IMG/VR virus record: IMGVR_UViG_3300042934_000234
Coordinates: 1 to 44,104 of that record
Strand: one strand, 5' to 3'
Length of the DNA stretch: 44,104 bases
Source of the DNA: a virus
Shown: positions 1 through 44,104 of the stretch, in pieces
Numbering within the stretch: position 1 is the first letter of the stretch
Layout of the letters: every line of letters starts with the position of its first letter
Program-made: the position numbers and the translations under genes
Notes under the pieces: generated by a model
Seen by the model: only the letters and a program-made list of their open reading frames with translations
Database searches by the model: none
What the model was told of the DNA's origin: nothing

Positions 1-315
1 GCAGACCAACCAGCAACGGAAAGGCCATCACGCACCCGTAATAAGCCCGCCGCTTCTCAACCTGCGGATCGTACGCCAGCGCCCGTGGAAGAAACGCAGT
101 CAGAAACCACGCCAGTAACAACCCCTGAGCCTGCGCAAGAGAAAACTGCTGAGCCGACCTTCACGATTGAACAGGTTCGTGCCAAGCTCTCTGATCTGTC
201 AAAGACCAAACAAGCACAGGTGAAAGCCCTAATCAGCTCCTACAACGTAACCAAACTGACCGACATCCCCGCCGAGAAGTATGCCGATTTAATGGCCAAG
301 GCAGAGCAACTGTAA
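1..315 (+). CDS. C-terminal part of a phage early-operon protein
   Basis: The frame is open from base 1 to a TAA at 313-315, so this is the 3' end of a gene that starts outside the window. The visible 104 residues begin with a Pro/Ala/Thr/Glu-rich linker (about residues 1-45) and end in a compact domain containing VRAKLSDLSK and TKLTDIPAEKY. Small proteins with this tail occur at the head of Firmicutes phage replication clusters and are sometimes labelled rRNA biogenesis protein rrp5, a name that does not establish function. Its stop overlaps the next start (TAATG), which indicates translational coupling. Role unknown. Confidence 0.7.
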   Translation, partial: ADQPATERPSRTRNKPAASQPADRTPAPVEETQSETTPVTTPEPAQEKTAEPTFTIEQVRAKLSDLSKTKQAQVKALISSYNVTKLTDIPAEKYADLMAKAEQL

Positions 316-6678: not shown

Positions 6679-8298
6679 ATGTTTCTAGCTGAGGTGATCA
6701 TCCCGAAAATGTTCACGGCATACGCCGAAGACATTGAATACCTACAAAACGGACTGCACAAGATCCAATACTTCTGTGAAGAGTGCGACCAAGCCTTCGC
6801 CGCAGCCTGGGGTCGAGCACCGGGTATTGGTTTCTATGAACGCGGAACCCGTTTCCACTGCCCTTTCTGTGGCACACTGCACGAAGAGAATGTCGTTGAA
6901 GTGAAACGCAATACGCGAGTACCTCACAAAGTGCGGCTTAGCTTAAAAGAACACAAGGACACGGTGATATTTGAAGTACAGTGTGAAATTGTTATGTTCA
7001 AAGACCTATTCAGCTTATCGGGTGGAAAGTATAGAGAAACCTTCCGCTTTGATCTTGCAAAACGGAGAGTTATTTTCGCTAGGTATGATAATCTTGGTGA
7101 GTTAATCGATTCTCAACTGCTAGGTAATCCATTCGAGCTGGATCTGTTCAAGGACAGCATTCTTAGCTCCTTCTTACCAAACAGCCTAGCTAACGCGAAG
7201 CAAAAAGCTGAACTAAACAGCATATTGAAGCTACTGCGTGAAACGGTACACGCCAAGCTAGAAAAGCAACTTGGGCACAAAATACCGTCGATGTTCGTTA
7301 CTTCGGGAAGGCTCCACGGAACCTTCTTACTGCCGATCTTCAACCTAGCATTCCGCGTTGCCTTCCCTAACGCGACAAACTTACCACTGTATTACCGGGG
7401 CGGGCATGCGGATCAGGCCGATTTCCGGGCGCTGATGATGATCAAAGACACCGAGTATATGGGCCGAGTCATGGAACTGACTAGCCAAAAGGTCGACCAC
7501 ATCACCGCGCTGATCAGGGTTAAGGGGTTGCCAGACAAACCAGCTATACGAAGAGCCCTGGGCGAGAATATGTTTGATGCTGATCGACTGTCAACAGCCT
7601 TCAAGCTCTGCACGAATTACGATTACGCGATGCGCCTATACGCCGGTTTTAAGCTTGTGCTTGTCGGATCGTACGAGAGAGGATACAAAACAAATGAGAA
7701 CCTATTTCAATTTTTACGGGCTATGCTCCCGATCTATGGTGAAGCCGGAATCGTTCAACTGATGGAGACTGAAAGCCATCTGTGGGACTGCGTTCTTCTA
7801 CACAATGCTGAGCTCAATGAAGAGAATCGCCAGGCGATCAAGACCGAAGGCGTAAAACTCAAAGACCTGCACGACTGGATGGCTAAGCGTCACCGCCTAC
7901 AGAATCACAAGAATCTAAAGCTGGATATACCTGAACACATCGTGAAGCGGTTATCCATGCAGACTGATCGCTTGAAGTTCTTTCTACCTAAGGAATCGGT
8001 TGAATTGCTGGAGGCCGGGGCGGAGTTGCATAACTGCGTAGCATCCTATAGTTCGGCAGTAAAAGACCATAAAAAGTGGATTGTCCTAGTAGCCGACGAA
8101 AAAGGCCGGCTGGCTGCGTGCCTCGAGATTAAGGATAAAGAACTGGTGCAGGCCAAGATCGACCGAAACAAAGCAGTATCGACAGATGCAAAACTCAACG
8201 CCGAGGTTATCGCCTGGGCGAAAGAGGCAGGAGTCACGATCACGACCAAGGACGTAAAGGAACAGGTAGAGATGCAGCCCTTGGTTGCTGTTGGTTAA
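6679..8298 (+). CDS. PcfJ-like protein with N-terminal zinc ribbon
   Basis: A 539-residue protein behind TTAGGAGGTG at 6664-6673. The N-terminus has a zinc-ribbon pattern, C33-x2-C36 and C61-x2-C64. The C-terminus (about residues 440-525) matches PcfJ-like proteins: ELHNCVASYSSAV, a strand CLEIKDKELVQAK and a following NKAVSTDAKLN segment. PcfJ was named from an Enterococcus conjugative plasmid, and relatives are common in phages and other mobile elements; their function is unsettled, though a nucleic-acid role is likely given the ribbon. It precedes the radical SAM gene by 18 bases. Confidence 0.75.
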   Translation: MFLAEVIIPKMFTAYAEDIEYLQNGLHKIQYFCEECDQAFAAAWGRAPGIGFYERGTRFHCPFCGTLHEENVVEVKRNTRVPHKVRLSLKEHKDTVIFEVQCEIVMFKDLFSLSGGKYRETFRFDLAKRRVIFARYDNLGELIDSQLLGNPFELDLFKDSILSSFLPNSLANAKQKAELNSILKLLRETVHAKLEKQLGHKIPSMFVTSGRLHGTFLLPIFNLAFRVAFPNATNLPLYYRGGHADQADFRALMMIKDTEYMGRVMELTSQKVDHITALIRVKGLPDKPAIRRALGENMFDADRLSTAFKLCTNYDYAMRLYAGFKLVLVGSYERGYKTNENLFQFLRAMLPIYGEAGIVQLMETESHLWDCVLLHNAELNEENRQAIKTEGVKLKDLHDWMAKRHRLQNHKNLKLDIPEHIVKRLSMQTDRLKFFLPKESVELLEAGAELHNCVASYSSAVKDHKKWIVLVADEKGRLAACLEIKDKELVQAKIDRNKAVSTDAKLNAEVIAWAKEAGVTITTKDVKEQVEMQPLVAVG

Positions 8299-8316
8299 TG
8301 GGATGGTGGCCACGAG

Positions 8317-9405
8317 ATGTTAATAGGTTTAATAGATGCCGACCTTATAGCAGGCAAACATAGAATACCGAACCTGGCACTAATGAAGATATCCTCCCAA
8401 CTAAAAAGGCGAGGGCGCGAGGTGGAACTGGTTACTGAATACAAAGACCTTGCTAGGTACACCAGGTTATATATCGCTAAGATTTTCACAGATACCCCGG
8501 TTCCGCGGGAAGTGCTTGATCTCCCCAATATTATCTATGGCGGTACAGGGTTCCTATATGATCAGGCTATACCTCTGCCATCTAACGTTGAACACCTTAC
8601 ACCAGACTATTCGCTATACGAATCCTGGGCAACCACCACAAAGATCAGTAAAACCACGAAAGAGCATTACCTCGACTTTTCTTATGGTTTTACCACGCGG
8701 TATTGTTTCCGAAAATGCCCGTGGTGCGTTAATAGGAACTATGACAGAGCGGTTATCCATAGTCCGGTATTTGAGTTTGTGGATCGTACCAAAAAGAAGA
8801 CATATTTGCTCGATGATAACCTCTTTGCGGCAGGAGGTGCCTGGCGACAGATTTTAGATGAGCTCGACGCTACCAAAATACCTTATCAGTACATTCAGGG
8901 TAATGACCTGAGGCTAATGACTCCAGAAATAGCAAAGCGACTCAGTGAGGCCAGATGGTTCGGTGATTTTATTTTCGCTTTCGATGACCCTAAGGACGAG
9001 CCGGAAATCCGAAAGAAGCTAAGCATATGGCGGGATCACTGCGGCAAGGATACGAAGTTGTACACCCTTTGCGCATATGAAAGCATAGGAGCCGATGACA
9101 TCGATAATCTGTTCTATCGGTTTAGTATTCTTGCCGAATACAACGCTGCACCTTATGTTATGCGCTTCGAGAACTACGCGCACAGTCTTAACCGAGGGAT
9201 GTACGTGGCCCTGGCTTCGTGGGCTAATCAACCACACATTTATCATAAGATGTCTTTTCGGGAATTCTGCGAAGCAAAAGCCAAACGGTACGGGGAAAAG
9301 GCCCCGCTCCGTTATGCCGAAGAGTTTGCAAAAAGGGAACCGAAGATAGCGCGGCGGTGGTTCGATTGGCGCTATGACTCTAAGGGAGAAAGGAGGAAGC
9401 TATGA
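8317..9405 (+). CDS. B12-type radical SAM enzyme, substrate unknown
   Basis: A 362-residue protein. The N-terminal 100 residues resemble the B12-binding-like domain of radical SAM proteins (IGLIDADLIAGK, PNLALMKIS, YGGTGFL, LTPDYSLYES). The radical SAM cluster motif C-x3-C-x2-C is intact at C130, C134 and C137, preceded by an aromatic YGFTTRY segment. Downstream LLDDNLFA and QGNDLRLMT resemble the barrel strands of the same family. Such enzymes use S-adenosylmethionine and a 4Fe-4S cluster to make a radical. Relatives are common in phages and mobile elements, but their substrates are unknown to me; nucleic-acid modification is one possibility. Its stop overlaps the next ATG. Confidence 0.8.
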   Translation: MLIGLIDADLIAGKHRIPNLALMKISSQLKRRGREVELVTEYKDLARYTRLYIAKIFTDTPVPREVLDLPNIIYGGTGFLYDQAIPLPSNVEHLTPDYSLYESWATTTKISKTTKEHYLDFSYGFTTRYCFRKCPWCVNRNYDRAVIHSPVFEFVDRTKKKTYLLDDNLFAAGGAWRQILDELDATKIPYQYIQGNDLRLMTPEIAKRLSEARWFGDFIFAFDDPKDEPEIRKKLSIWRDHCGKDTKLYTLCAYESIGADDIDNLFYRFSILAEYNAAPYVMRFENYAHSLNRGMYVALASWANQPHIYHKMSFREFCEAKAKRYGEKAPLRYAEEFAKREPKIARRWFDWRYDSKGERRKL

Positions 9406-36331: not shown

Positions 36332-36363
36332 TTGTAGATTTATTGCATAAAATGCGATATATT
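36332..36363 (+). promoter_or_regulatory. possible promoter for the channel-TIR cassette
   Basis: TTGTAG (36332-36337) and GATATA (36356-36361, 18-base spacing) upstream of the cassette. Weak matches in an AT-rich stretch. Confidence 0.3.
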
Positions 36364-36406
36364 GGAATTGTTGGTGAATATGGGACAGCCCTTGAGAGGT
36401 GTTGCG

Positions 36407-37018
36407 ATGCAAAACGGCTTTTTATATGAAATTATCGTAAAGATCATTGTTGCATTAAACTATTTAAATTTGGTTGAATTATTTAAGTGTGTCGCCAGAA
36501 GACTAACTACGGTAGAAGAGAATAAGAAAGCAAGTATTAACATCGCTATCGATATTTTTATCGTTATGAAATGGGTGTTAATTATTATCTTTTGGGCTAA
36601 TCAATGGAGTGAGTACTGGTATTCTTTTGTTGCTTTCTATTTGATCGCGTTTAATTTACATACGTACTTCTATTATCACATATGGGAAGACCGAGCCATA
36701 ACTAACGTTCAAATCTCGATAGAACGAGTTAAGCGTCGATTCGTCAACCTCATTCTCGCGATAGCCTTTTCTACGGTATGTTATGCATATCTGTATGCAG
36801 TTTGTTTTCGAGACCAATTTACGTGGGCGTATGGCGTCTCAACCAACATCGCGGCTATTCAGTATAGTATGGCCAATATTTTCGGCGGATCAAATGATAT
36901 TGTTAAGCCCAACACCGACATAGGTGAAATGATTTTGATATCTCAACTTATAGTGACTTTTCTATTTATCACGATTATAATGTCGCGGTCTATCCCGCAG
37001 TTTGAAGTAAAAGAATGA
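36407..37018 (+). CDS. four-helix membrane protein with K+-channel-like pore region
   Basis: ATG 36407 has GAGAGGTG (36394-36401) five bases upstream and gives 203 residues; an upstream TTG/ATG would add up to 15. Four membrane helices near 45-63, 70-90, 113-133 and 168-193 are seen. Between helices 3 and 4, the segment IQYSMANIFGGSNDIVKP lines up with the pore helix and filter of two-helix-pore K+ channels (YxS...TVGYGDIVP), but the filter itself is degenerate. It overlaps the ThsB-like TIR gene by 4 bases in the ATG frame (37015) and is AT-rich relative to the phage. A membrane effector activated by a TIR signal is the working idea. Confidence 0.7.
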   Translation: MQNGFLYEIIVKIIVALNYLNLVELFKCVARRLTTVEENKKASINIAIDIFIVMKWVLIIIFWANQWSEYWYSFVAFYLIAFNLHTYFYYHIWEDRAITNVQISIERVKRRFVNLILAIAFSTVCYAYLYAVCFRDQFTWAYGVSTNIAAIQYSMANIFGGSNDIVKPNTDIGEMILISQLIVTFLFITIIMSRSIPQFEVKE

Positions 37019-37032
37019 TGGAGGTTTTTAAT

Positions 37033-37536
37033 ATGGCTTACCGAAACAAAACGTATGTCTGTTTTGATGCGGATAATGATATGAATTATTATTCACTTAT
37101 GAAGGCGTGGAAACAAAACGACAATACTAACTTTGATTTTTACAATGCTCATGATCTTAACAATCTCCGGGATGGAAGTAGCGACGACACGATAAAAAGG
37201 AAGCTTTGGGAGCGGCTACTTAATACAAAGTTTTTTGTTATATTAATTGGCGAACATACAAAAAACCTTTATAAGTTTGTTAGGTGGGAAATAGAACAAG
37301 CTCTTAGTCTTGGGCTACCAATTATTGCGGTTAACTTGAATGGGAAACGGCGAAAAGATGACGAGTTGTGTCCTCCCATTATTCGGGACGAACTAGCGGT
37401 TCACGTCAGCTTTCAGGCAGCTATTATGCAAAAATCACTTGAATCATGGGGCATCGATCACGATAGTTATAAAAAACAAGGTAAAACTGGAGCGTTTCAT
37501 TACCCGGATAGCGTTTATAAAGATCTAGGGTTGTAA
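37033..37536 (+). CDS. ThsB-like TIR domain protein (DUF1863)
   Basis: ATG 37033 is preferred for its GGAGG site (37020-37024), giving 167 residues. The fold is the ThsB/MTH538 TIR-like domain: first strand KTYVCFDADND, then FDFYNAHDLNN, FFVILIGEHTKN and helix FVRWEIEQAL with a Glu (E86/E88) at the place of the TIR catalytic residue, ending LGLPIIAVNLNG. ThsB proteins of Thoeris sense phage and make an NAD-derived signal for a partner effector. Here the partner would be the channel-like protein; no SIR2-SLOG or Macro ThsA is nearby. A terminator follows. Confidence 0.8.
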   Translation: MAYRNKTYVCFDADNDMNYYSLMKAWKQNDNTNFDFYNAHDLNNLRDGSSDDTIKRKLWERLLNTKFFVILIGEHTKNLYKFVRWEIEQALSLGLPIIAVNLNGKRRKDDELCPPIIRDELAVHVSFQAAIMQKSLESWGIDHDSYKKQGKTGAFHYPDSVYKDLGL

Positions 37537-37946: not shown

Positions 37947-38015
37947 GAAAGCAAATAGAGTTATCTGTGGCATCACCATAGGTAACTTTTCTTTTATCAG
38001 AAAGCAGGTGGGATG

Positions 38016-38828
38016 ATGCGCCCGATTTGGAAAGGAATACTCTCCTTTGGTCTCGTGAACGTACCTGTTACTATGTTTTCCGCTATCCAGAAGAAAACTA
38101 TTACCTTCAACCAGTTGCGGCGGTCGGACCATAGCCGTATCAAATACAAGAAGGTCGCTAGCGATGGCGTTGAAGTCGAACAGAATGAAATAGTCCGCGG
38201 CTATGAAGTGTCGCCTGACCGCTATGTGGTTATAGAGGACGGCGAATTAGAGGCTATCGCACCTAAGGCCAGCAGACATATTGAGATAGCCGAATTTGTT
38301 AAACTACAGGAGATCGACCCGCGCCACTATGACAGCTCGTATTATCTGGCGCCGGATCAGGGAGCAGGTAAAGCCTATGCGCTGTTGCTGGCTGCCATGG
38401 CGGAGGCAGATGTCGTGGGCATCGCTCGTTTCGTGCTTCGCAGCAAAGAGTACCTGGCGGCGATCCGTCCAGCCGGTAATGCGTTGACACTATCGACCAT
38501 GTTGTTTGCCGACGAGATCCTGCCGGCAGAGCGACTTGATTCGTATCTTCCTCAGGACGCCAAACTGACCGATAAAGAAATGGATATGGCCCGGCTGTTC
38601 ATTCAGTCGCAGACGGCTAAGTTTGAGCCTGAGAAGTATGAAAACGAGTATTATAAAGCAGTTACACAGCTGATCGATCGGAAAGCGGAGACCGGCACGG
38701 TGGCAACTGCCGAGCGTGCATCCGGCAAGGTGCTCGATATCATGGCTGCGCTTGAGGCTAGCCTAAAGGCAGTGCAACCGAAGTTGCAGAAGGAGAAAAA
38801 GACAAGGAAGAAAGCATCCGGAGCGTGA
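38016..38828 (+). CDS. ku: Ku family DNA end-binding protein
   Basis: A 270-residue bacterial Ku (ATG 38016 with AGGTG at 38006-38010, giving the canonical MRPIWKGILSFGLVNVPV start). The core Ku barrel continues with ITFNQLRRSDHSRIKYKKV, RGYEVSPDRYVVIED and SYYLAPDQGAGKAYALL, and the C-terminal part includes EKYENEYYKAVTQLI and a basic tail (KKTRKKAS). Ku binds double-strand ends and recruits LigD for end joining. No ligase is in the window, so the host or an unseen gene must supply it. A Ku gene within a prophage is uncommon; it may protect the linear genome or be cargo. Confidence 0.93.
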   Translation: MRPIWKGILSFGLVNVPVTMFSAIQKKTITFNQLRRSDHSRIKYKKVASDGVEVEQNEIVRGYEVSPDRYVVIEDGELEAIAPKASRHIEIAEFVKLQEIDPRHYDSSYYLAPDQGAGKAYALLLAAMAEADVVGIARFVLRSKEYLAAIRPAGNALTLSTMLFADEILPAERLDSYLPQDAKLTDKEMDMARLFIQSQTAKFEPEKYENEYYKAVTQLIDRKAETGTVATAERASGKVLDIMAALEASLKAVQPKLQKEKKTRKKASGA

Positions 38829-38833
38829 AGAGG

Positions 38834-38858
38834 GCCACCCGTATATGGGTGGCTTCTT
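38834..38858 (+). terminator. terminator after ku
   Basis: GCCACCC (38834-38840), GTATAT loop, GGGTGGC (38847-38853), then TTCTTT. Confidence 0.8.
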
Positions 38859-38863
38859 TGCAA

Positions 38864-38890
38864 TTAAAAAGGAGTAGATTGCTCTACTCC
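38864..38890 (-). terminator. terminator of the reverse-strand exported gene
   Basis: Read on the reverse strand: GGAGTAGA, four-base loop, TCTACTCC (38871-38890) followed by TTTTTAA. It faces the ku terminator. Confidence 0.8.
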
Positions 38891-38896
38891 AGGGGC

Positions 38897-39436
38897 CTAT
38901 TTAGGCAGTTTTTTAATCTCAGCATCAAGGTCAAACGCAAAAACATCTGCCCATTCTTTAAGCGTTTCTATTGTTATCGGTACGATCATGGGTTGCTGGT
39001 TTGAGAATTGTAGCTTAATCTGCATTGTTTTTCCGTTTTTAATCGCCTTGTGAAAATTGTCATCCTTATATATAGTTCTCATTGCCGAGGTGTGTAGCAA
39101 TCGTTTGTCTGGTAGTCCATGGTCGCGCGTGTGCCATATAAATTCCTGCCCGTGCGGGTCCCCGTCAACTAAGTAATACGCGCTTTTAGTAAAAAAATGA
39201 TATTTGTTGTCAATGATAATAAAGTTTATATACGTAGGAGTATACTTTTCTAGCTTTGGCGAAAACATTTTAGTCGCTATTGCGGTTATGCTTAGCGTGT
39301 CGGTTACATTAACAGTTTTTGTGCTGGAAATCGTAAACGTATTTGAGAACTGGTCAAAATTGCGCTTTATTTCGGCTGACGCTGGCGGCATGGCAACTGC
39401 CATAGTTAATAGAAGCATTAACAAAACTTTTTTCAC
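38897..39436 (-). CDS. exported protein of unknown function
   Basis: A 179-residue protein on the reverse strand from GTG at 39436, with AAGGAG about 9 bases upstream. The N-terminus is a Sec signal peptide (MKKVLLMLLLTMAVAMPPASA, cut after ASA). The mature part is beta-rich (FSNTFTISSTKTVNV, YINFIIIDNKYHFF, LQFSNQQPMIVPITIE) and ends EIKKLPK. No family is recognised. One of only two reverse-strand genes, it is convergent to ku and looks like lysogenic cargo expressed from the prophage. Confidence 0.75.
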   Translation of the reverse strand: MKKVLLMLLLTMAVAMPPASAEIKRNFDQFSNTFTISSTKTVNVTDTLSITAIATKMFSPKLEKYTPTYINFIIIDNKYHFFTKSAYYLVDGDPHGQEFIWHTRDHGLPDKRLLHTSAMRTIYKDDNFHKAIKNGKTMQIKLQFSNQQPMIVPITIETLKEWADVFAFDLDAEIKKLPK

Positions 39437-39462
39437 TTTTTACAACTCCTTACAGGAATATT

Positions 39463-39491
39463 TTGTTATTGTCAGAATATCATAGTATATT
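39463..39491 (+). promoter_or_regulatory. promoter for the XRE regulator
   Basis: TTGTTA (39463-39468) and TATATT (39486-39491) with 17-base spacing, 22 bases before the ATG at 39513. Confidence 0.6.
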
Positions 39492-39512
39492 AGGCATGGC
39501 AAGGGTGATGGG

Positions 39513-39743
39513 ATGATTAAGGTGTTTATTCGCGAACGGCGCATGGAACGACACATGACGCAGAAGCAGTTAGCCGAAAAGCTAAAGAATAGCGCGGGAA
39601 AGCCTTTAAGTCAGAGTGATTTAAGTCGATACGAAAAGGGAAAGCCATTACCTCCGTTGGATATTCTTTATCAAATAGCTGTTGTTTTGAAATATAAACT
39701 AGACGACCTTGTACCGGTCGAACTTGATGAGCCTAAAAAATAG
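39513..39743 (+). CDS. XRE-family transcriptional regulator
   Basis: A 76-residue HTH_XRE protein: RERRMERHMTQKQLAEKLKN, a turn with SQSDLSRYEKGKPLPPLDIL and YQIAVVLKYKLDDLV. DNA-binding only, no effector domain. It lies divergently from the exported-protein gene with a good promoter and terminates in its own hairpin, suggesting a stand-alone regulator of lysogeny or cargo genes. Confidence 0.85.
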   Translation: MIKVFIRERRMERHMTQKQLAEKLKNSAGKPLSQSDLSRYEKGKPLPPLDILYQIAVVLKYKLDDLVPVELDEPKK

Positions 39744-39755
39744 GCTCATTTTTAT
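39727..39755 (+). terminator. terminator of the XRE gene
   Basis: ATGAGCCTA (39727-39735), AAAAA loop, TAGGCTCAT (39741-39749), then TTTTT. The stop codon lies in the stem. Confidence 0.85.
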
Positions 39756-39793
39756 TTTGTCCATTTTTATTCATTATTAACAACTTTTTGGGG

Positions 39794-39848
39794 ATATATG
39801 CATATATATAAACTAGAAAAAACAACAGAGGGGTGAATATAGCACCCC
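39794..39848 (+). repeat. palindrome and hairpin upstream of the FtsK module
   Basis: ATATATGCATATAT (39794-39807) is a perfect 14-bp palindrome. A second stem GGGGTG (39830-39835) pairs with CACCCC (39843-39848) around AATATAG. They lie between the XRE terminator and the FtsK module and could be a promoter/operator, origin or oriT-like element. Confidence 0.5.
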
Positions 39849-39870
39849 ATATAGCGAAGGAGGGATTGAG

Positions 39871-40149
39871 GTGTTAGAAATACCGATAGCGACCAAGGTT
39901 ATTCCGTTGGCGATTGCTGGATTGATTGCTCTCTCGCCATTGCCAAAACCTGATGCATTATTCGAAATGGCTAAAACCACAAAGATTCACAAAGAGCATG
40001 TGACAACTGATAACGGCTATACAGAAACTATCACTATTACCGAGCGTGATTCTAACGAGAAGAAGGGTATAGTGTCAAAAGCGGGTTCTGAAATCTGGCA
40101 AGTTGGCAAGGGTGTTTGCAAGAAAGTCTACTGGTGGATTAAAAAGTAA
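39871..40149 (+). CDS. small membrane protein ahead of the FtsK-like ATPase
   Basis: A 92-residue protein from GTG 39871, with AAGGAGG at 39857-39863. One hydrophobic segment at residues 9-25 (VIPLAIAGLIALSPLP) and a soluble rest with a terminal KKVYWWIKK. The TAA overlaps the next ATG (TAATG), so it is coupled to the ATPase, which itself has no membrane helix; it may anchor the ATPase. Confidence 0.65.
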   Translation: MLEIPIATKVIPLAIAGLIALSPLPKPDALFEMAKTTKIHKEHVTTDNGYTETITITERDSNEKKGIVSKAGSEIWQVGKGVCKKVYWWIKK

Positions 40150-41234
40150 TGGGCATGTTGGCGAAATGGTTAGCCAAGCGAAGAGGAACAGAATTGCCTT
40201 TCGTTGTTGCCGATACGGTAAAAATACTGTGGCCTGATGAAACGCCGACACTAATCAGGCAGAGCAAGACAGACACAGGTTATGAGTTTGTATATGTCGT
40301 GCCAAGAAATATGAGTTTTGATGACTTCACTCGAAAAGAGGGTAATTTTAGAGCGTCTACAGGCTGCAAAATAGCCTTCGATATCAACGGCAAAGCGTTA
40401 ACCATGCAAGTGTTTGAAGCGGAGTTGCCAAAAGAAATAGACTATGAATGGAATCCTGCCGACTATCAGAAAATGCATCTACCTATACCGCTTGGAATCG
40501 GCCTAGATGGTGTGTGTGTAGTTGACTTGGCAGAACTACCTCACATGTTTCTTTCGGGGCCAACAGGCACAGGTAAGAGCATGATAACACGATCGATAGC
40601 AACTAGCTTACAGATCGGCAGCGCAGAAAAGATGTATATGGTGATTGTGGATTATGGCGAGGTTGACTATCTTTGGTTAGAAAATCACGCTTTGTTAGTG
40701 ACAGACCAAGAAAAGGCATTACAAGTCTTTCAGTTATTGAACAAGGAAATGGACAGACGAAAGAAGCTATTAGTCAAATATCGAGTTGAGAAAGTCACTA
40801 AGCTGCCCGAGCCGATACCGTTTATCGTTGTACTGATAGATGAGTTTGTAGAGATCAAGGATGATGATAAGTCCGTTAAGCTAGTTGATCGGCTATGCAG
40901 GGTTGGCAGAAAAACAGGCATACATATTGTTGCTGCTACACAAAGATTGTCACATACGGCTGTAAAAGGTGCAGGTGATATTAAACATAACTTCCCTGCT
41001 AGGCTGTCTTTCCGCTGCGATGCGGTAAACAGTCGGATGATTCTTGGTGACGATTGCGACCTAGCCAGCAAACTGCCTAATGTAAGAGGAAGGGCGATAT
41101 TCCGTAATGGCGATCCGGTTGAATTGCAGACGTTCAAGATTGATCCGCCATTGGCCGAGAAGTTAGTGAATCAGCTTCCTTACAGGGAGGTTTTCAAGGT
41201 TGAACCAGCATCAATTCTGTTACCACCGCGATAG
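40149..41234 (+). CDS. FtsK/SpoIIIE (TcpA/HerA-type) DNA translocase
   Basis: A 361-residue RecA-fold ATPase. Walker A GPTGTGKS (137-144, K143), Walker B FIVVLIDEFVEI near residues 226-237, and AATQRLSHTAVKGAGDIKHNF as the sensor/hexamer region. Unlike TcpA coupling proteins of ICEs it lacks N-terminal membrane helices, a role the preceding small protein may fill. Paired with a replication-relaxation gene that starts inside its 3' end, it resembles mobilisation or segregation modules of plasmids and ICEs. Confidence 0.85.
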   Translation: MGMLAKWLAKRRGTELPFVVADTVKILWPDETPTLIRQSKTDTGYEFVYVVPRNMSFDDFTRKEGNFRASTGCKIAFDINGKALTMQVFEAELPKEIDYEWNPADYQKMHLPIPLGIGLDGVCVVDLAELPHMFLSGPTGTGKSMITRSIATSLQIGSAEKMYMVIVDYGEVDYLWLENHALLVTDQEKALQVFQLLNKEMDRRKKLLVKYRVEKVTKLPEPIPFIVVLIDEFVEIKDDDKSVKLVDRLCRVGRKTGIHIVAATQRLSHTAVKGAGDIKHNFPARLSFRCDAVNSRMILGDDCDLASKLPNVRGRAIFRNGDPVELQTFKIDPPLAEKLVNQLPYREVFKVEPASILLPPR

Positions 41235-41811
41235 CGAAATAATCCTATCGCTGAAAAGCATGGGTGCGCTCGATCTTTATCAAATCAGGTATTTGCACTT
41301 TCCTAGCATCAGAACGGCGCGGCGCAGACTGGAAGTATTGGCTGAGAGGAAAAGTATCAATCGCGTTCGCCCGTCTATGGATGTGCCATTTCATTACTGG
41401 ATAGGCAAGAAGCCGGGGCAATTAGAGCACAGAATCGGCGTGAACTATACTCGGCTGTTCTTGCAAAAGTGGGAAAAAAGCCTGCAATCCTGGGAATACG
41501 AACCGCAGTATTATGACATTCTCAGGCCGGATGGATTTGCAACGGTTAAAACAGGCAATGAATTAAGCTGTTATTTTATTGAGTTTGACCGCTGCTTCGA
41601 CCCTTTTGATAAGGTGCAAAAATATAATCTGCTTTATTCGTCCCGGGAGTTTGCTGAAGCATGGTGGGCGAAATCTGTTAAGCGGTTCCCTGTTATCCTT
41701 GTCGTCAGTGAGGACGTTGACAGAGCGAAGAAAGGATTAAAAGACAATAAGCATAACCTTGAATTTCGGATCATGGACTATCGGCAGATTAAGGAGGGGT
41801 TCATGTGTTAG
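41200..41811 (+). CDS. replication-relaxation family protein
   Basis: A 203-residue protein from TTG 41200 behind AGGGAGG (41184-41190), overlapping the ATPase by 35 bases. N-terminal winged helix (SEIILSLKSMGALDLYQIRYL, ARRRLEVLAERKSI) and C-terminal part with HRIGVNYTRLFLQ, PDGFATV, CYFIEFDRC and FPVILVVSED match the Replic_Relax family of plasmid and ICE proteins, which has a restriction-endonuclease-like fold pattern. It probably binds or nicks DNA at an origin of this module. Confidence 0.75.
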   Translation: MNQHQFCYHRDSEIILSLKSMGALDLYQIRYLHFPSIRTARRRLEVLAERKSINRVRPSMDVPFHYWIGKKPGQLEHRIGVNYTRLFLQKWEKSLQSWEYEPQYYDILRPDGFATVKTGNELSCYFIEFDRCFDPFDKVQKYNLLYSSREFAEAWWAKSVKRFPVILVVSEDVDRAKKGLKDNKHNLEFRIMDYRQIKEGFMC

Positions 41812-42035
41812 GTAGCATGCTTTATGAAGTGTTTATTAAACCCAGCGGCGTTGGTTTCCCTATTACCCTTGTCGTGGTGCTGAACTTTGGTGTATGGGTT
41901 TATTCAGAAATTATCATGGCAACAGGTGGAGAAACTAGAAGCATCGAGAAGCTTAAGAAATTCATGGTAATAAATACTGTACTAGGCGCAGCAATGCTAA
42001 TTGTTAATGGAATTTTCGGCAAGATGCAAGGGTGA
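41805..42035 (+). CDS. small two-helix membrane protein
   Basis: A 76-residue protein from GTG 41805 overlapping the previous stop, with AAGGAGGGG upstream. Two membrane helices (FPITLVVVLNFGVWVYSEII, VINTVLGAAMLIVNGIFG) flank a charged loop. Coupled to the replication-relaxation gene; unknown function. Confidence 0.65.
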   Translation: MLGSMLYEVFIKPSGVGFPITLVVVLNFGVWVYSEIIMATGGETRSIEKLKKFMVINTVLGAAMLIVNGIFGKMQG

Positions 42036-42180
42036 TAGTGTCAGTGTTGCCACTTCCCCTAACACCCTTTGTTCGTGAAGTTTGTGTCTGTTTTGTCTGG
42101 CTCTAAGGCTGTTTTTTGTAGTAATGATGCTATGGATATCTGTATATGGCGCGGTATAGGTTGCGGTACAGGAGGGTTTT

Positions 42181-42522
42181 ATGAAACTGGTCGTCCTAGT
42201 GCTGGTTGCCATGGTTGTCTTATCTGGCGTGTGCTTGGCAGGATTTTTTGATAGTGCAGCCGATACGGTGAATGAAAAGGTTGACCAGCAAACAGATAAG
42301 TTGATGGCCAAGGTTGTTGCCGGATTAGACAAAGGATTTGATTGGACGGTTAAGAAGGTCTTGGGGTTCATTTATTGGGTGATGCAAGTTATATCTATCG
42401 TTGCCATCGGCTGGCTGCTGTCAATGCTCTGCGATAAGGATAGCAGAAAGTGCGTTAGAATCTTGGTTGTCTTGGTGTCGATCAGCCTAACAGTTGATAA
42501 GTTAAAAAGCCTAATTAATTAA
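42181..42522 (+). CDS. exported or membrane small protein
   Basis: A 113-residue protein with GGAGGG before the ATG. N-terminal signal (MKLVVLVLVAMVVLSGVCLA, cut near LAG), a hydrophilic helix (DSAADTVNEKVDQQTDKLM), then two membrane helices (FIYWVMQVISIVAIGWLLS, VRILVVLVSISLTV). With the neighbouring small proteins it belongs to the FtsK module. The 145 bases before it (42036-42180) hold no supported gene. Confidence 0.65.
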   Translation: MKLVVLVLVAMVVLSGVCLAGFFDSAADTVNEKVDQQTDKLMAKVVAGLDKGFDWTVKKVLGFIYWVMQVISIVAIGWLLSMLCDKDSRKCVRILVVLVSISLTVDKLKSLIN

Positions 42523-42537
42523 AAGGAGTGTTTTGTA

Positions 42538-42744
42538 ATGGAAAAAATCATACGTCTAGTTAACGAGGTTGCCGAAATGTGTCAGCGCGAAGAAGTTCCG
42601 TTGCTCTGCATCTATGGGAAAAGCGGTGATATCGAAGTTAAAGAATATGCGCCTGAGGAAACGCCGGAAATTTACAGTAAGGCGCGAAGCGTACTGTTTA
42701 ATTCAACGAAACCAAAAATGCGGACAATGAAAATTCAAGGTTAG
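42538..42744 (+). CDS. hypothetical small protein
   Basis: A 68-residue protein after AAAAGGAG (42522-42529). Helical start (IIRLVNEVAEMCQREE) and a strand VPLLCIYGKSG, charged end. No family known. A terminator follows. Confidence 0.6.
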   Translation: MEKIIRLVNEVAEMCQREEVPLLCIYGKSGDIEVKEYAPEETPEIYSKARSVLFNSTKPKMRTMKIQG

Positions 42745-42771
42745 ACAGGCGCGGCGGTCGATTGAGATTAT

Positions 42772-42812
42772 GGCGTAAAAAAAAATAGCCGGGATAACCC
42801 CCGGCTATTCGA
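42772..42812. terminator. bidirectional terminator
   Basis: AATAGCCGGG (42784-42793) pairs with CCCGGCTATT (42800-42809). Nine A residues upstream give a strong U tract on the reverse strand and a weaker one on the forward strand. Confidence 0.8.
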
Positions 42813-42918
42813 ATTTTGTTGGAAAATGTCGGAATTTGCGATATTTAAAAAGCAGGAATTTTGGAAAAACGCAAGAACGAATTATATCTTTATACCTAAA
42901 AATAAGACAAATGGCCTT

Positions 42919-42937
42919 ATGTCGAATAATGTCGAAT
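42919..42937 (+). repeat. tandem 10-bp operator-like repeat
   Basis: ATGTCGAAT occurs at 42919-42927 and 42929-42937, with a related ATGTCGGAAT at 42826-42835, ahead of the HTH gene. A 10-bp step places repeats on one helix face, as for repressor operators. The 243 bases from 42745 to 42987 otherwise hold only the terminator and this element. Confidence 0.45.
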
Positions 42938-42987
42938 GTTGTATTATGTACTTAATGATATGCGGCTCCATAGCAAGGGGGTTGGGA

Positions 42988-43188
42988 TTGGAGCGAAACT
43001 ATATCCAAGAGTACAGATTACAACAAGGCATTAAAACAAAACGAGCATTGGCAAATTTAGCAGGAGTGCCGGAGTCAACACTTAGGGAGATTGAGAACCA
43101 CAAAATGCGTGGCAATCCAGCAACACTGGATAAAATCGCACGGGCGCTCGGGGTTAGAAGGGAGGAATTGTATGTAAGGCCGAAGTAA
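42988..43188 (+). CDS. XRE-type small regulator (Cro-like)
   Basis: TTG 42988 six bases after AGGGGG (42976-42981) gives 66 residues; the frame is open upstream to 42826 but the added part is not protein-like. HTH: YIQEYRLQQGIKTKRALANLA, PESTLREIENHKMRG, ARALGVRREELYV. It faces the reverse-strand XRE gene 3' to 3' and may be a Cro- or antirepressor-like partner. Confidence 0.7.
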   Translation: MERNYIQEYRLQQGIKTKRALANLAGVPESTLREIENHKMRGNPATLDKIARALGVRREELYVRPK

Positions 43189-43189
43189 A

Positions 43190-43474
43190 TTATTTTTTAT
43201 CTGTTAGTCCATATTTCCAACGCAAATAGTCCTTAAACAATTTTAGCTCCTGCAGAGCCAGCGCGGGAAAATCATCATTTTCTCTAAAAAAATCTTCAAC
43301 TGATATTTCTAGCCCTTCGCAGATTTTTTCGATGGTATTAAACTGCGCTGCGTTATTCGACTTGGAAACTATGTTATGGAGAGTTGATTGTGTTATTCCA
43401 GATCGATCAGCGAGATTATTCACAGACATGCCAAAGGCATCGCAAAAATACAAAATGCGTTTTGAAAGGTCCAT
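43190..43474 (-). CDS. XRE-family phage repressor
   Basis: A 94-residue HTH_XRE protein on the reverse strand; ATG 43474 has GGAGG seven bases upstream, whereas a start at 43504 has none. HTH: RILYFCDAFGMSVNNLADRS, TQSTLHNIVSKSNNA, FNTIEKICEGLEISVEDFF. Its promoter and an inverted repeat lie just upstream. A likely lysogeny repressor near the attachment end. Confidence 0.82.
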   Translation of the reverse strand: MDLSKRILYFCDAFGMSVNNLADRSGITQSTLHNIVSKSNNAAQFNTIEKICEGLEISVEDFFRENDDFPALALQELKLFKDYLRWKYGLTDKK

Positions 43475-43535
43475 CTTTTGGCCTCCGAATCCTATTTTTG
43501 CCAAAAGTATACCTTTAGATTCTATATGATGCCAA
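43475..43535 (-). promoter_or_regulatory. promoter and candidate operator of the repressor
   Basis: On the reverse strand: TTGGCA (43530-43535) and TATACT (43506-43511), 18-base spacing. The inverted repeat CTTTTGGC (43475-43482) and GCCAAAAG (43500-43507) flanks the start and overlaps the -10, so the repressor may bind there to control itself. Confidence 0.55.
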
Positions 43536-43612
43536 CGTTATAAGGTTTAAAAATAAATGATAAAAAGTTAAAAGGGGTGTATTAGAATGTTCGATGCATC
43601 TTGATAGCAAGA

Positions 43613-43650
43613 AAACACCAGCCCCTGTTAAAGGACTGGTGTTTGTCTTT
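43613..43650 (+). terminator. terminator before the last phage gene
   Basis: AAACACCAG (43613-43621) pairs with CTGGTGTTT (43636-43644), with a smaller inner stem, then GTCTTT. No clear gene ends just before it. Confidence 0.65.
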
Positions 43651-43731
43651 AATTAAGAAGTTTCGACATTATATGACAGAAATAGCGAATCTTCTACAAT
43701 TACAGAACTGCAAAAGGAAGGGGTATTTATC

Positions 43732-43926
43732 ATGATCTATAGCCAGATACATAGTATAACCTCCGCAACGATTGTAGTTTTTAAAGGCTATACATATAAT
43801 AACAGAAAAGTATCGCGCGCTGACTTGAAAACTATTGGAGAATCGTTGCGAGACCATATGCTTGAGTTAATGGTAAAACAAGGAAATGCATTAAACTTCA
43901 AAAAATCCAATATATTGGAAGGGTAA
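43732..43926 (+). CDS. hypothetical small protein at the phage end
   Basis: A 64-residue protein with AAGGAAGGGG upstream. It has a beta hairpin-like start (SATIVVFKGYTYNNRKVS) and a helix (LKTIGESLRDHMLELMVK). Position beside the attachment end suggests an excision or integration accessory, but no family is recognised. Confidence 0.5.
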   Translation: MIYSQIHSITSATIVVFKGYTYNNRKVSRADLKTIGESLRDHMLELMVKQGNALNFKKSNILEG

Positions 43927-43943
43927 TTTATATGTTTTAATAA

Positions 43944-44042
43944 TCATTCATCACCTTGGCCGAGTGCGCGCGGACGTTGAAAAAGGCTGGGGCTAAGGAA
44001 GTGCACGGACTGGCACTGGCGAGTGGGGCGTCGGGATGGTAA
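43944..44042 (+). pseudogene. comF: 3' fragment of comF, cut by the prophage (host DNA, attR side)
   Basis: From 43944 the frame reads SFITLAECARTL, then KKAGAKEVHGLALASG and ends GW at TAA 44040-44042. TLAECARxLKKAGAxxV is the C-terminal signature of ComF-family amidophosphoribosyltransferase-like proteins used in DNA uptake. No start or upstream ComF sequence exists in the phage, so this is the separated 3' end of a host gene and marks the right attachment region near 43944-43960. The base composition also shifts to GC-rich here. Confidence 0.7.
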
Positions 44043-44104
44043 GAGTTGAATCGCAGAGGGTAGCAAATGCTAGACGTGAGAAAAGCGCTCATTCCTTACG
44101 GAAA
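44043..44104 (+). other. host DNA beyond the prophage
   Basis: Two frames run open to the window edge (ATG 44036 overlapping the comF stop, and ATG 44067); too short to identify. Confidence 0.4.

Follow-up and report, generated by a model that had tools for sequence, protein, structure and literature searches.

The comK prophage of Listeria represents a case of active lysogeny. Prophages are known in comFA (Streptococcus equi, S. suis and the Bacillus cereus group), in comYC and in comK, according to the available part of PMC4774983, and the prophage SpST71A was located in comGA of Staphylococcus pseudintermedius in the available text of PMC7029219. For the ComF family itself, the available part of PMC9005727 describes that the change of T165 to alanine in the DDIITTGTTL motif of Helicobacter pylori ComFC impairs function. 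A prophage in comF or comFC was not found in the open-licence literature searched, and none is described in the available portions of PMC10995628 and PMC2516327 either.

The window analyzed here, 44,104 bases long, is in itself a virus record, to which no host contig is joined. It very probably represents the right-hand 44 kb of the prophage of a temperate tailed phage, with the right attachment site in the 3' part of the host comF gene.

Results

Phage content and the missing left end

Genes typical of temperate tailed phages are encoded in the window, among them those for a DUF2800 nuclease, a DNA polymerase and a helicase/primase, together with terminase, portal, major head protein, tape measure protein and amidase genes. 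A phage gene truncated by the record boundary occupies positions 1-315, so the window lacks the left end of the prophage.

Several other genes of this phage were recorded. A bacterial-type Ku protein is encoded at 38013-38828 (TIGR02772, 293.7 bits). The region 36362-37536 encodes a 218-aa protein with no family match, apparently a membrane protein, and after it a ThsB-type TIR protein (PADLOC ThsB, E 1.9e-77; Pfam ThsB_TIR), and it is possible that this pair is a Thoeris-like defence cargo with an unrecognised partner. In the replication region (6679-9405), a PcfJ-like protein adjoins a 362-aa protein (8317-9405) with no Pfam match that, by eye, is similar to a radical-SAM enzyme.

No tyrosine integrase or resolvase was found in the window. 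A short frame on the minus strand of the last 62 bases closes, by eye, with a loosely integrase-like peptide; this peptide has no tyrosine and was taken as chance. The relatives G001, G002 and G003 do carry an integrase, located at the left end or beside attP, which is the part absent from the window record. The DUF2800 query yielded 80 loci, and an integrase was sought by motif in 30 of them, five of which (L023, L024, L028, L029 and L037) have a minus-strand integrase at the left end. In the closest of the five, L023, about 3.9 kb lie between the integrase and the counterpart of the gene cut at base 1 of the window, and placing the five loci beside the window suggests that approximately 4-7 kb were lost from its left. 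Taken with these relatives, the sequence from 43944 onward is probably the right attachment site, and the integrase and the left junction were probably lost at the left.

The right-end junction

The sequence-only reading had placed a frame resuming as the C-terminal ComF signature, with no upstream part, at 43900-44042. The frame opens after the stop codon at 43941-43943, reads SFI and then TLAECARTLKKAGAKEVHGLALASGASGW, and closes with the stop codon at 44040-44042. The ComF homology begins at the T after the slash in the PRPP loop, DDxxTTGA/TL, as observed in alignment A1 with six ComF-type proteins; one of the seven rows of A1 is the window fragment itself, and the searches built on it are not fully independent. 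The signature without its upstream part was borne out: the last 29 codons are joined directly to phage DNA. The proposed interval was slightly wide: the homology runs over 43953-44042, and 43900-43926 are the final bases of a small phage ORF.

The junction is sharp. A step in composition is located at 43943/43944, with a GC content of 0.32 in 43505-43943 vs. 0.55 in 43944-44104. The last 161 bases of the window are unlike the preceding phage DNA in composition, and 7% of the 161-bp windows of phage DNA reach their GC content. The ATG at 44067 opens a downstream frame that runs off the record, and this start codon is preceded by a purine-rich stretch. The search with the 64-aa ORF adjoining the junction matched 21 stretches, none of them a relative. 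The features of both ends are collected in Table 1.

Table 1. Features at the left and right ends of the window
Feature	Position	Strand	Basis
Phage gene cut by the left record end	1..315	+	
FtsK/SpoIIIE-type ATPase	40149..41234	+	PF01580, E 8.8e-21; 92% identical in G001
Replication-relaxation family protein	41200..41811	+	PF13814, E 1.8e-9
68-aa ORF; homologue in G001 beside tRNA-Arg attP and integrase	42538..42744	+	
Cro/C1-type regulator	42826..43188	+	HTH_3; DNA homology to L008 over 42872-43336
Cro/C1-type regulator	43190..43504	-	PF13443/HTH_3; homologue in L008/G002, 69%
64-aa phage ORF adjoining the junction, no relatives found	43732..43926	+	
TCA TTC ATC: three codons on the phage side of the junction that share the comF frame but do not resemble ComF	43944..43952	+	
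Putative attR crossover zone	43944..43975	.	GC step at 43943/43944; position vs. G002
Host comF-family gene, 3' end: PRPP-loop threonine codon and those after it (29 in all), plus stop	43953..44042	+	ComF C-terminal profile, alignment
Start of the downstream frame (MLDVRKALIPYG...), cut by the record end; presumed host gene	44067..44104	+	

Identity of the fragment

ComF profiles were built from 12 of 14 ComF-type loci (L012 and L013 failed the motif filter), one of the 12, L010, being a defence-type PRTase and not a plain ComF. With the C-terminal profile, the frame at 43953-44042 was the best match in the window (35.2 bits, E 8.3e-10); the next best frame reached 7.8 bits (E 0.38), and the best of 40 triplet-shuffled windows reached 13.3 bits. 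A longer ComF profile also matched the fragment (E 3.2e-5); the later, longer model was made from 11 loci, with L010 left out. After the PRPP loop, the fragment has a C-terminal block like T[LV]xECAxxLxxAGAxxV.

The curated ComF model TIGR00201 did not match the fragment at E<=10; the fragment covers a small part of this model, so the miss tests length more than identity. With the 32-residue piece, which is short for such models and searches, neither a ComF nor a PRTase family came up in hmmscan, and a phmmer search of the PDB yielded weak unrelated matches only.

PyrE, PRPP synthetase and HPRT share the PRTase block, and the assignment of the fragment to one of these enzymes was rejected because their chains run well beyond it. 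The fragment frame ends about 6 residues past the shared block. Of the 60 PDB matches listed for the ComF alignment, a comparably early end was observed in only one chain, H. pylori ComF (7p0h), which has 2 residues left; the other chains in that list continue for at least 17 residues past the block. The fragment is a ComF-family C-terminus, above chance.

Attachment sites of related phages

Two related records, G002 (IMGVR_UViG_3300033406_000296) and G001 (IMGVR_UViG_3300042923_000241), were compared with the window. In viral_contigs, one relative was found for the regulator at 43190-43504, namely L008 in G002, and the DNA similarity between window positions 42872-43336 and G002 is 69%. G002 is a provirus with both ends in the record and a 51-bp att core, in tRNA-Val, common to both. 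Its right end stops within the 3' half of the tRNA, and the opposite, left end has the whole tRNA and a tyrosine integrase. G002 is like the window in having the regulator pair at its right end, and unlike it in having the attachment site in tRNA-Val. This site lies at the place corresponding to the window junction, as the core of G002 starts 774 bp past the shared block and the junction is found 608 bp past it. Since the junction is located where an attachment site is expected, comparison of the sequences indicates that the window phage most likely uses comF, in place of a tRNA, as its integration target.

G001 shares 39778-42744 with the window at 76-80% and differs from it in having tRNA-Arg sequence at the attachment site. 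The 3' part of this tRNA, read by eye, is situated between the homologue of 42538-42744 and the integrase, and ARAGORN detected no complete tRNA-Arg gene in G001. The G001 record (L004-L007) has 77,756 bp and identical 127-bp ends, and because of this overlap it was read as a circular genome of 77,629 bp. The presence of a common FtsK/replication-relaxation arm in G001 and the window, but with a different integration site, suggests an exchange of integration modules.

The ComF alignment was also run against 28 of the 81 relatives and matched one of them (G004), in a different PRTase, which we take to be an HPRT, beside the integrase. A phosphoribosyltransferase gene, apparently for an HPRT, has an integrase immediately upstream in a related provirus (L024:1-1745).

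Searches for a second junction, a host or an empty site

The DNA of 38000-44104 had no match among phages, and that of 43880-44104 matched 12 plasmid records, all as short, chance-like pieces (E 2-8). A tblastn search with the 32-aa piece gave none in plasmids and one match in phages, at E 6. The comF DNA patterns gave 0 hits in viral_contigs and 0 in genome_contigs, so that no host genome or empty comF site was found there. The FtsK-type protein matched 17 stretches of genome_contigs, none of them a relative, and the exact junction-side pattern gave 0 hits in viral_contigs.

A broad ComF C-terminal pattern detected seven stretches in viral_contigs, with no split comF among them: the ComF of L009 is intact, the PRTase of L111 is the partner of a DprA-like protein, and L109, L110, L112, L113 and L114 were unrelated on reading. 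Pairs of a DprA-like protein and a ComF-like PRTase were observed in phage records at L010:5372-7869 and L111:2608-4501, and the best PADLOC matches of the L010 pair were ShosA and PsyrT/ShosT.

Discussion

Three observations give good support to the proposal of a prophage right end in comF: the match to the ComF profile, the change in composition, and where the relative has its attachment site. In the integration proposed here, a phage integrase encoded outside the record, presumably of the tyrosine type as in the relatives, would have recombined attP with a site in comF, across a putative common core at the PRPP-loop codons. The right flank would have kept the final 29 codons of the original comF and the gene after it, and the 5' part of comF would be expected at the missing left end, adjoining the integrase.

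Whether comF is inactivated in the lysogen or gains, at the left junction, a substitute 3' end encoded by the phage is about an even choice. If integration splits comF, as proposed in the sequence-only reading, the break would fall at the PRPP loop, lysogens would lose the ComF function and transformation, and excision would restore them; we consider this plausible, at a little under an even chance. T165 of H. pylori ComFC, whose change to alanine impairs function in the available part of PMC9005727, aligns with the residue at which the ComF part begins on the right of the junction, so a simple split would cost the protein a portion of its PRPP site. Prophages in comYC, comFA and comK are, moreover, argued to block transformation in the available part of PMC4774983. 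Against this, a replacement 3' end would still be allowed, the left junction being missing from the record, in which there is also no sign of regulated excision, and ComF-family genes are, as general knowledge, also present in bacteria without known competence. Alternatively, attP would carry a copy of the comF 3' end, an intact comF would be rebuilt at the left junction, and 43953-44042 would be the displaced old 3' end, a reading that we credit with nearly one chance in two. G002 rebuilds its tRNA-Val by means of the 51-bp phage core, G001 has a tRNA-Arg 3' part beside the integrase, and the site in the window is near the 3' end of comF, with the 5' part of the gene on the side where the relatives carry the integrase; completion of the interrupted gene is a property of many attP sites, as stated in the available part of PMC12884075. 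The copy of the comF end that this would involve is not visible, however, as the left end is absent from the record, and a protein-coding target requires a long coding core. The left junction decides between a disrupted and a restored comF.

An assembly chimera, or the attP of a free phage instead of an integrated end, could account for a single record with no read data and with the other flank missing. It is nevertheless improbable, since the ComF piece is found at the position of the attachment site in the related provirus G002 and a start codon preceded by a purine-rich stretch comes after it, as expected of a host flank. There is likewise only a slim chance that the phage, whose relatives use tRNA sites, both switched to the catalytic PRPP-loop codons of comF and turns DNA uptake off while it is integrated, uptake being regained on excision.

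If comF is disrupted by the integrated phage, a further, independent competence gene would be added to the list of those hit by prophages, a convergence of the kind predicted by the intragenomic-conflict view of transformation. If comF is restored, this would simply be another attachment site in a protein gene. The comK prophage of Listeria would be a functional analogue if excision restored comF, for which the window provides the sequence of one junction only. The comFA, comYC and comK cases were shown against empty sites in sister strains (available part of PMC4774983), whereas the window concerns comF/comFC and one junction; as in those cases, prophage DNA is joined to part of a gene for the DNA-uptake machinery or its control. 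The split by SpST71A was confirmed by PCR against strains with the intact gene (available text of PMC7029219), whereas the possible split in the window is seen at a single junction; the window prophage, similar in size to SpST71A, would likewise lie in one of the late competence genes.
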